From positions 2,834,501 through 2,898,500 of the forward strand of contig NZ_CP092480.1 in assembly GCF_022429645.1 (NCBI RefSeq): a stretch of 64,000 nt of DNA, given 5' to 3'. Positions 18,558 to 21,792 of the stretch are shown here, piece by piece. Origin of the DNA: Lutibacter sp. A80 (GTDB taxonomy: Bacteria > Bacteroidota > Bacteroidia > Flavobacteriales > Flavobacteriaceae). Numbering within the stretch: the stretch's first letter is position 1; each line of letters starts with the position of its first letter. The position numbers and the translations under genes are program-made. The notes under the pieces were generated by a model. The model saw only the letters and a list, made by a program, of their open reading frames with translations, made no database searches and had not been told where the DNA came from.

Positions 18558-19598
18558 ATGGCAAACCCAGTAATTTCTTTAATTGTATTTGTATTAATAA
18601 TTGCAATTCTTGTAGTTCTATTTTATCCTAAAACCGGTTTTTATTGGAGGCTTCTTAGAAGTTTTAAAAGAGATTCTAAGGTGTTAATTGAAGATATTTT
18701 AAAAAAATTATACCATGCAGAAGACAATGGTAATACCTTAAATAGTAATGATATTATTAGTGCTTTAGATGCCAATCCAAAAAAAGTAATAGAAATTATT
18801 GCCGAAATGGAAGAAAAAGGATTGATAAGTTTTGAAAATGGCGATATAAAACTTACTGAGTTGGGGATGGATTATGCGCTTAGAATAATAAGAGTTCATA
18901 GATTATGGGAAAAATATCTATCTGAAAAAACAGGTTTCGCTAAAAAAGATTGGCACGGGATAGCCGAAAAAATGGAACATGAATTAGATCAAACGCAAAC
19001 TAAAGAGTTGGCAACAGATTTAGGAAATCCTAGATTTGATCCACATGGAGATCCAATTCCTACAGAAACAGGTGAAATAGAGCCAATTAATGGACAGCCG
19101 CTTCCAAATTTTTCAGAAGGAACAATTGGACGAATTATTCATATAGAAGATGAGCCTGAAATAATTTATAAGCAGATTTTAGCCGAAGATTTACATATTG
19201 GATCACATGTTCTTATTATTGAAAATAACGAAAAAAGAATTGTGTTTCATTCTGAAGGAGAAAAGTTTATTTTAGCTCCAATTGTAGCGAATAATATTAC
19301 AATTTCTGAGTTGGAAAAAGAAGAATTTTCAGAAGAAAACACTTCTAGACTTTCAAGTTTAAAAGAAAGTGAACAAGCTAAAATTATAGGAATTTCTCAC
19401 GAATGTAGAGGAGAAATGAGAAGAAGACTATTAGATTTAGGTTTTGTTATTAACACAAAAATTGAAGTAGATTTAACAAGTCCAATGAAAAATCCACGAG
19501 CTTATTTAATTAGAGATACTTCAATAGCAATACGAAACGAACAGGCAAAATTTATACTAATTGAAAAAATACAAGAACATGCAAAAAGTAACAAATAG
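18558..19598 (+). CDS. Membrane-anchored DtxR-like/FeoA fusion protein
   Basis: A 346-residue protein with an unusual order: one N-terminal transmembrane helix (about 5-24), a DtxR-like winged helix (about 38-100), the DtxR dimerisation domain (about 105-165, with [21 protein letters not shown] and FDPHGDPIP), an SH3-like domain (about 180-250) and a C-terminal FeoA domain (about 268-340, with [16 protein letters not shown] and [17 protein letters not shown]). FeoA normally is a small separate partner of FeoB. The FeoB gene starts inside its 3' end, so the fused FeoA is the likely partner. Whether the DtxR part still binds DNA is unknown. Confidence 0.88.
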
Positions 19599-20349
19599 TG
19601 CTTGTGAAGGCTGTGAATTAAATCAGGCTTCAAACCTAAAAAAATTAGGGATAAATGTTGAAAATAACGATTATATAGTTGCTCTTGCAGGAAATCCGAA
19701 TACCGGAAAAAGTACTGTTTTTAATGCCTTAACTGGGTTAAAACAACATACAGGAAATTGGCCAGGAAAAACAGTTACACGTGCAGAAGGAGGATATAGT
19801 TATAACGATAGTAAATATAAATTAGTAGACCTTCCGGGTACCTACTCATTACTTTCTACCTCTCAAGATGAGGAAGTTGCGCGTAATTTTATTCTTTTTG
19901 GAAAACCAGATGTAACAATTATTGTAGTAGATGCAAGTAGATTGGAGCGTAATTTAAATCTAGTCTTGCAAATACTTGAAATAACCGATAAAGCTGTTCT
20001 ATGTTTAAACTTAATGGATGAGGCTAAACGTTTAGAAATTGAAATTGATGATAGAACTTTAGCGCGTGACCTTGGAATACCAGTGGTGCCAACCAGTGCA
20101 AGATCTAAAGATGGAATACCAGAGTTATTAAAAACAGTGCATGATGTTGCAACAGGAGAAATAAAATGCAAACCTCACCGTATTAAAAATGTTCCTAAAA
20201 ATATTAATAATGCTATTGAGAAATTACGTATAGAAATAGAAAAAGCATATCCAAATTTACCAAATAGTAGATGGATAGCACTTCGATTACTAGATGGAGA
20301 TCAACGTATTATTGAAGCAGTAAAAACAGGAGAGTTTATTTCTGAATAA
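19579..20349 (+). CDS. feoB: FeoB GTPase domain protein (split FeoB, N-terminal half)
   Basis: A 256-residue protein that holds only the cytoplasmic G domain of FeoB: G1 [10 protein letters not shown]3 DLPGTYSL, G4 NLMDEA and G5 SARSKDG, then part of the helical regulatory domain (to about residue 256). A CEGC motif precedes the G domain. The protein stops before any membrane segment; the membrane half is the next gene, 30 bases on. The ATG at 19579 is preferred to a TTG at 19561; either way it overlaps the FeoA-fusion gene by 20-38 bases, suggesting translational coupling. Role: GTP-dependent control of ferrous iron uptake. Confidence 0.9.
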
Positions 20350-20379: not shown

Positions 20380-21792
20380 ATGAAAACGAATAAAATATTA
20401 AATATCAGTAACGATTTAAGGTGGCAAATTGGTGAAGGCTTTCATGATAAATTAACCGAAGGAATTTATTCAGATGCAGCTACTATTTCTCAAAATTCTG
20501 TTCGTAAAAAAGGGGGTAAAAAACGCTTTCGATTCGATAGAGCTTTGGATAAAATTGTAACAAGTAAAACTTGGGGATTTCCAATAATGATTTTTATTTT
20601 ATCTGTTGTTTTGTGGCTTACTATAATTGGAGCTAATTATCCTTCTGGTTTATTAGCAGATTTATTGATAGGGCAAATTTATCCTTGGTTAAAAGGTATA
20701 GGTGAGTCTTTAGGGTTTACTTGGTGGTTAAGTGGGTTTTTGTTTGATGGGGTGTACCTTGCTTTAGCTTGGGTAATTGCAGTAATGTTACCTCCAATGG
20801 CAATATTTTTTCCACTTTTTACTTTGTTAGAAGATTTTGGATATTTACCTCGTGTAGCTTTTAATTTAGATAATTTATTAAAAAAATCTGGTGCCCACGG
20901 TAAGCAAGCTTTAACTATGAGTATGGGTTTTGGTTGTAATGCAGCAGGTGTTATTGCAACGCGTATAATTGACAGTCCTAGAGAGCGATTAATAGCCATT
21001 ATTACAAATAATTTTTCGCTATGTAATGGAAGGTGGCCTACTCAAATACTAATAGCATCTATTTTTATTGGCGTATTGGTGCCAGAAAATTTTGCAGGTG
21101 CAATCTCTACATTAGCAGTTATTAGTATTGCATTGTTAGGTGTATTTTTCACTTTTATGGTATCTTTATTTTTATCAAAAACAATGTTAAAAGGTGAAGT
21201 ATCTTCTTTTACATTAGAATTACCTCCGTATAGACCACCACATTTTTGGAAAACAATTTACACCTCTTTAATAGATAGAACATTAATTGTTTTATGGAGA
21301 GCCTGTGTTTTTGCAGCACCTGCAGGAGCGGTTATTTGGTTAATTTCTAATGTTGCTATTGGAGATTCTAATATTGCAAATTGGTTAATTTTACATTTAG
21401 ATGGTTTTGGATTACTTTTAGGTTTAAATGGAGTAATTTTATTAGCCTATATTGTTGCAATACCTGCCAACGAGATTGTAATCCCTACAATACTAATGTT
21501 AACTGTAATGGCAGCCTCAATTACTGGCGTAGGTAGTGGAAATGGTGTCATGTTCGAATTGGAATCTGTTTCAGCAACGGGAGATATTTTAAAAGCAGGT
21601 GGTTGGACTTTACTTACAGCCATAAATTTAATGTTATTTAGTTTATTACATAACCCATGTAGTACCACTATTTATACTATTTATAAGGAAACAAAAAGTG
21701 TAAAATGGACTGTTGTTGCAAGTATTTTGCCTGTAATTTTAGGGTTTACAGTTTGCTTTATTGTAGCTCAAGTATGGAGAATATTTATGTAA
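20380..21792 (+). CDS. feoB: FeoB membrane domain protein (split FeoB, C-terminal half)
   Basis: A 470-residue integral membrane protein corresponding to FeoB from the end of the helical domain onward. It has the two Gate (nucleoside-recognition) repeats, the [13 protein letters not shown] and [12 protein letters not shown] segments and a conserved cysteine in [10 protein letters not shown]. It lacks any GTPase motifs. It is in the same phase as the upstream G-domain gene, but three stop codons (TAA, TGA, TAG) lie between them, so it must be translated separately from the ATG at 20380. Role: the ferrous iron pore of the inner membrane. Convergent with the response regulator gene, 5 bases away. 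Confidence 0.92.

Follow-up and report, generated by a model that had tools for sequence, protein, structure and literature searches.

The window, i.e. the whole stretch of 64,000 nucleotides of Lutibacter sp. A80 DNA that was analysed, contains a group of four genes on the forward strand (Table 1). They stand in the order that is usual for this module: a soluble DtxR, a protein combining a DtxR-like part with FeoA (the fusion protein), the GTPase half of FeoB and the membrane half of FeoB. The soluble DtxR is 222 aa long, with DNA-binding, metal-binding and SH3/FeoA-like domains that are all intact in a Pfam search. Its gene ends 4 nt before the start of the fusion gene; the gene of the FeoB GTPase half overlaps the 3′ end of the fusion gene by 20 nt, in agreement with the overlap with a split feoB noted in the preliminary description, and the gene of the membrane half starts 30 nt after the end of that of the GTPase half.

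Table 1. Features of the module in the window (positions counted from the first letter of the window)
Feature	Position	Strand	Evidence and remarks
DtxR/MntR operator-like palindrome TTTTGGCTAGTCTAAA	17832..17847	+	53 nt ahead of dtxR start; 1 mismatch to TTTAGRYNNRYCTAAA
Soluble DtxR/MntR-type repressor, 222 aa	17885..18553	+	Pfam Fe_dep_repress 4.1e-16, Fe_dep_repr_C 2.1e-31, FeoA 2.1e-8
Membrane-anchored DtxR-like protein fused to FeoA, 346 aa	18558..19598	+	
Transmembrane helix, residues 4–22	18567..18623	+	AlphaFold2 helix; hydropathy and positive C-terminal flank conserved
Winged helix, residues 44–99, with degenerate recognition helix and wing	18687..18854	+	
DtxR metal-binding/dimerisation domain, residues 100–169	18855..19064	+	Pfam 9.7e-22; ligand positions
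First SH3-like domain, residues 185–252	19110..19313	+	Within 5zr6 superposition (residues 43–252)
H-I-E-D-E-P motif, residues 195–200	19140..19157	+	Alignment of 64 fusion proteins
FeoA domain, residues 264–337	19347..19568	+	Pfam 4e-20; 7r7b superposition
FeoB GTPase half and first part of helical domain	19579..20349	+	Pfam FeoB_N 2e-61, FeoB_Cyto positions 3–46 of 90
CxxC motif (CEGC) before P-loop of FeoB-N	19603..19614	+	Kept in 61/63 relatives
FeoB membrane half	20380..21792	+	Pfam Gate 2.3e-23, FeoB_C 2.5e-13

A search of GTDB genome contigs found 23 loci, namely 21 with a complete fusion ORF together with L008 and L026. FeoB-N is the next gene in all 23, and FeoB-C comes next in all except L007, where the contig ends. 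The record titles of the loci name Lutibacter, Tenacibaculum, Polaribacter, Roseivirga, Cyclobacteriaceae, Ignavibacteria, Melioribacter and Anaerolineae, as well as Acidobacteriota, Verrucomicrobia, Omnitrophota and Methylococcaceae; because most are metagenome bins, single taxon labels may be wrong. A profile was run over 392 genomes of the phylum to which the window belongs (GTDB Bacteroidota, which as sampled includes an Ignavibacteria contig) and detected the module in 44, the window's own genome counted. All 44 matches have an E-value of 1.1e-98 or lower; the next match (1.4e-49) is an ordinary DtxR. All 44 proteins have the membrane helix, FeoB is split in 42 of these genomes and fused in two, and dtxR ends within 40 nt upstream in 38. 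In the phylum of an Anaerolineales locus, the module is present in 8 of 201 genomes (profile, E 1e-60).

Comparisons were made with a set of 64 fusion proteins that includes the window's protein and omits L008 (the reading of its ORF stops after 23 codons), L026 (a partial copy) and L083 (on the same contig as L016). All 64 sequences are different, two pairs being more than 90% identical. The FeoB part or parts lie directly 3′ of the fusion gene in 64/64 loci, as far as the contigs extend, and a separate DtxR gene lies within 40 nt upstream in 49/64. No DtxR match was present upstream in 12 of the 64 loci, some of which lie at contig ends. A FeoA profile run over the fetched loci revealed no second FeoA inside the module; its five further matches are all 5.7–6.3 kb from the fusion start, outside the module, and four of them are in loci with another FeoB nearby. 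The fusion protein and the split FeoB are thus a conserved module of several phyla, not a one-off. In the upstream flanks, two divergent minus-strand neighbours recur in 22 loci each; by eye, they resemble an Mrp/ApbC-type ATPase and triosephosphate isomerase.

The fusion protein, with its 346 aa and membrane helix, differs from the stand-alone FeoA, which is small and cytosolic. The N-terminal transmembrane helix proposed in the preliminary description is present in the AlphaFold2 model and is predicted in 62 of the 64 proteins, which rules out that the hydrophobic N-terminus is an artefact of start choice. According to the positive-inside rule, the topology of a membrane helix can be read from the charge of its flanks; in all 62 helix-bearing proteins the positive flank faces the sensor domains. 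The exceptions, L022 and L023 (Verrucomicrobia), have no membrane helix, and both have a fused FeoB. In the AlphaFold2 model and the superpositions, the DtxR metal domain is followed on its C-terminal side by two domains of the FeoA/SH3-like type. The first is the SH3-like domain that had been suggested, as seen in the superposition on 5zr6; the second is a true FeoA domain (PF04023, 72.1 bits, cut-off 23), as had also been claimed, and superposes on 7r7b with an RMSD of 1.4 over 74 residues, B. fragilis FeoA being the closest structure. FeoA and the metal domain were found in 22/22 scanned members.

The GTPase, Gate and FeoB_C domains of FeoB all exceed their Pfam cut-offs and are spread across two proteins; against the NCBIfam feoB model (cut-off 315.65 bits), the halves score 209.3 and 164.6 bits, neither reaching the cut-off alone. 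Of 63 loci, 57 have a split and 6 a fused FeoB; one further locus is cut by the contig end. The split point is in the helical domain, between the GTPase and membrane parts, where FeoB-N ends after part of FeoB_Cyto. For the fused relative L014, the best match to a solved NFeoB stops at residue 219 of 271, close to the point at which the split relatives end. Neither the membrane helix nor the split is indispensable, as the two proteins without a helix and the six loci with unsplit FeoB demonstrate. The two halves share a frame, with three stops in between, as in a broken gene, in which case the adjoining fusion would be a relic. Such decay is extremely improbable, however, for a split that falls near one place in the 57 loci, of several phyla, whose FeoB parts are mostly 55–94% identical to those of the window; the same conservation rules out chance or a frameshift as its origin.

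In a FeoB tree, 60 module FeoBs form one clade (local support 0.78) with none of 28 other FeoBs inside; the latter include FeoB of E. coli K-12 and second FeoBs of module genomes, and L018, L021 and L023, cut by contig ends, were omitted. A CxxC motif, a possible metal site, is found on FeoB-N 28–32 residues before the P-loop in 61/63 loci and is absent from L069 and L070. Several further genes were seen around the FeoB genes. A GxxExxY/PDDEXK_3 gene lies between the two FeoB genes at L085:4798-5127, L097:4699-5073 and L016:7113-7622, assigned by Pfam for L085 and L097, by NCBIfam for L085 and by resemblance for L016. In L004, L005, L006 and L013, a second, unsplit FeoB and a FeoA match lie on the minus strand a few kb downstream of the module. 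The window's genome has a second FeoB elsewhere (C1:2283896-2285401).

The sensor half of the fusion protein had been described as a complete-looking DtxR winged helix and metal domain. The fold is indeed complete and the metal ligands are kept, but the DNA-reading surface has lost its conservation and its positive charge. The metal-binding/dimerisation domain of the window's protein (PF02742) scores 77.2 bits with a cut-off of 27. When the 64 fusion proteins are aligned with 52 DtxR proteins of the same loci, residues H114, E118, H133, E140 and H141 are identical in 64/64 fusions, E137 in 60/64 and D46 in 59/64; we take these seven positions to correspond to the metal ligands of DtxR/MntR. 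Residues H195, E197, D198, E199 and P200 of the next domain are also present in 64/64. The DNA-binding domain (PF01325, Fe_dep_repress) of the window's protein scores 16.8 bits, below the cut-off of 26, and this model matches only 4/22 scanned members even at E 0.01. The winged-helix fold is intact in the AlphaFold2 model and the superposition, whereas positions of the recognition helix and wing that are conserved and basic in soluble DtxR are variable in the fusions. In the soluble proteins, the equivalent of fusion position 82 is K/R in 49/52, and the wing has Y in 50/52, G in 49 and K/R in 42 at position 94 and in 43 at position 96. Over 52 matched pairs, the mean entropy is 2.45 bits in fusions versus 1.18 in soluble DtxR for the recognition helix and 3.07 versus 1.51 bits for the wing; the corresponding values for the metal domain are 1.22 and 1.27 bits. 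The winged helix carries a mean net charge of −2.88 in fusions and +2.13 in soluble DtxR. Since the two groups conserve the metal domain to the same degree, the contrast in the DNA surface is not accounted for by overall divergence. Judged by these patterns in the alignment, the sensor half is apparently a gene regulator without its former DNA-reading surface, joined to FeoA.

Upstream of the dtxR genes, one word family emerged from an unguided palindrome search, present in 23 of 51 loci compared with 5–7 in ten letter shuffles. Sites within two mismatches of the pattern TTTAGRYNNRYCTAAA, which was derived from the same 51 loci, occur in 32/51 versus about 2 expected from shuffles; a good operator-like site is missing in 19/51 loci. 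The soluble DtxR therefore probably controls transcription of the operon through this candidate operator. A scan of the window's own genome, giving 86 matches per strand versus 44 for the reversed pattern, was too noisy to define a regulon.

A membrane-bound DNA regulator, one of the two functions first suggested for the fusion protein, would bind DNA with its winged helix from the membrane, so that transporter events steer expression. The modelled fold is compatible with this, DtxR relatives bind DNA, and position 83, K/R in 52/52 soluble DtxR proteins, is still K/R in 38/64 fusions; some residual weak DNA binding may have been retained. Promoter DNA is also bound by PG1044 of Porphyromonas gingivalis (PgMntR), a repressor of the DtxR family that carries two FeoA domains (PMC4805248). 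A role as a membrane-bound transcription factor is nonetheless quite unlikely: the recognition helix and wing of the fusions vary and have an acidic average, whereas those of the adjoining DtxR are preserved, the metal ligands are retained while the Fe_dep_repress score of the window's protein is below the cut-off, and the operon already has a separate soluble DtxR and an operator-like site.

PgMntR is the nearest described protein to the fusion. As described (PMC4805248), PgMntR likewise has the DNA-binding and metal domains of DtxR ahead of a pair of FeoA/SH3-like domains, and H166, D169 and E170, its candidate ligands, are spaced in the way that H195, D198 and E199 are in the fusion. Judged by neighbouring locus tags, it is also linked to a FeoB-family system (feoB2, PG1043). 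The DNA-binding domain of PgMntR, however, starts from residue 13, too near the N-terminus for a membrane helix to fit, and the paper nowhere uses the word ‘transmembrane’; this comparison with the fusion follows the published description (PMC4805248). The twin-FeoA DtxR subfamily is thus represented by a soluble DNA-binding repressor, whereas the fusion has a membrane helix and a degenerate DNA surface. No PgMntR-like protein was recognised in four loci with ORFs of about 220–320 aa (L079–L082), the DtxR match of L081 not being among the ORFs kept. The DtxR/MntR repressors (5zr6; DR2539, 8pvt) share the fold and metal ligands with the fusion, but have no membrane helix and no second FeoA domain, and their DNA-reading surface is intact.

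Among Feo proteins, FeoA and the FeoAB fusions (B. fragilis, 7r7b) resemble the present protein in that a FeoA domain forms part of a larger Feo-system protein; in FeoAB, however, FeoA is fused to FeoB itself, according to the available text of a JBC survey of FeoA fusions, from which FeoA-DtxR proteins were removed by hand (PMC8980893). An mBio survey, in its available part, mentions FeoA with ‘an additional domain’, with no detail, and discusses Meo, a proposed Mn2+ branch of Feo (PMC8749426). Meo parallels the module in being an additional system of the FeoB family that may transport Mn2+, but neither a within-gene FeoB split nor a membrane DtxR is described for it in that part of the survey (PMC8749426). 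A full-text search of CC-licensed PMC papers, with subscription literature outside its range, returned no description of a membrane DtxR-FeoA fusion or a within-gene FeoB split.

We infer, with somewhat better than even confidence, that the fusion acts as a FeoA subunit, tethered to the membrane and sensing metal, in a divalent-metal importer built on a split FeoB, that it would form a complex with the two FeoB proteins and gate them in the closing direction, and that the cargo would be Mn2+. With a DtxR-FeoA sensor at a split FeoB, import may be under the direct control of the imported metal itself. Cytosolic metal, most likely Mn2+, would fill the site in the DtxR-type half and bring about a conformational change like that of DtxR proteins. 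The FeoA domain, linked to this half and kept at the membrane next to both parts of FeoB, would then alter the GTPase and close the pore. The soluble DtxR/MntR encoded upstream would separately switch off transcription of the operon. The direct metal sensor or gate at the transporter, proposed in the preliminary description, is accordingly favoured over the membrane-bound DNA regulator. Alternatively, the sensor half could be a metal buffer, a chaperone or a dimerising scaffold that takes metal from the pore and positions FeoA, with no gating. Ligand-type residues are conserved in several places (D161, H163, D165, H195, E197–E199), and the conserved CxxC on FeoB-N could form a relay; such a role is unlikely, however, given that the entire DtxR switch architecture is retained, beyond the ligands.

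The same sensor-gate mechanism could also serve Fe2+ as the cargo, the module then being an additional iron system suited to different conditions. This is a serious possibility, if short of an even chance. It is favoured by the FeoB homology, by the three pore cysteines of iron-type FeoB, kept in all tree members, by the structural closeness of the FeoA domain to that of B. fragilis and by the CxxC on FeoB-N. The residues around the pore cysteines, however, are fixed differently in the 60 module FeoBs (e.g. GCNAAG) and constant in at least 58/60 where counted, in comparison with 14 other FeoBs retained by a narrower motif filter; the GCN part is also present in E. coli FeoB. The sensors, too, are MntR-like, with Mn regulators as top matches: for both the soluble DtxR and the fusion, the best-scoring model is MntR, both being far under its cut-off. 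In L085, an mntH gene (597 bits with NCBIfam MntH, cut-off 430) separates dtxR from the fusion gene. Mn2+ is also favoured by at least one further FeoB_C match in 43/44 module genomes. Nramp is scarce in module genomes, with matches above the cut-off in 10/44 versus 31/36 hand-picked others (Fisher p 1e-8), a difference that is mostly between families and confounded by phylogeny. Within families, the counts for module versus non-module genomes are 3/3 versus 14/16 in the window's family, 0/1 versus 3/3 in f31 and 1/12 versus 1/2 in f35; the window genome's match, one of the three in its family, reaches only 61.7 bits. G120 and G200 have no module and belong to the family of G093, a module genome; in both, a homologue of DtxR is encoded next to an Nramp gene. 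On balance, Mn2+ appears somewhat the likelier cargo. The MntH inside the L085 operon (L085:7264-9186) has a C-terminal universal stress protein domain; Nramp frames of about 630–650 codons are also found in G021, G047, G057, G156 and G298.

The role of FeoA and the way in which Feo transporters are switched off are open questions. The module joins FeoA to a well-understood metal switch and has FeoB cut between its GTPase and membrane parts, so that separate proteins and known ligand substitutions could be used to probe how FeoA couples with metal sensing, GTP hydrolysis and the pore. There is about an even chance that a transcription-factor fold was anciently converted here into a metal-sensing gate and that, with the split FeoB clade, it makes up an unrecognised uptake system for Mn2+ (or Fe2+), spread over several phyla and having two sensors of DtxR fold, one at the promoter and one at the pore. 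If true, this would be a case of a transcription factor turned transporter subunit, and the module might explain the manganese supply of bacteria where no Nramp transporter is found.
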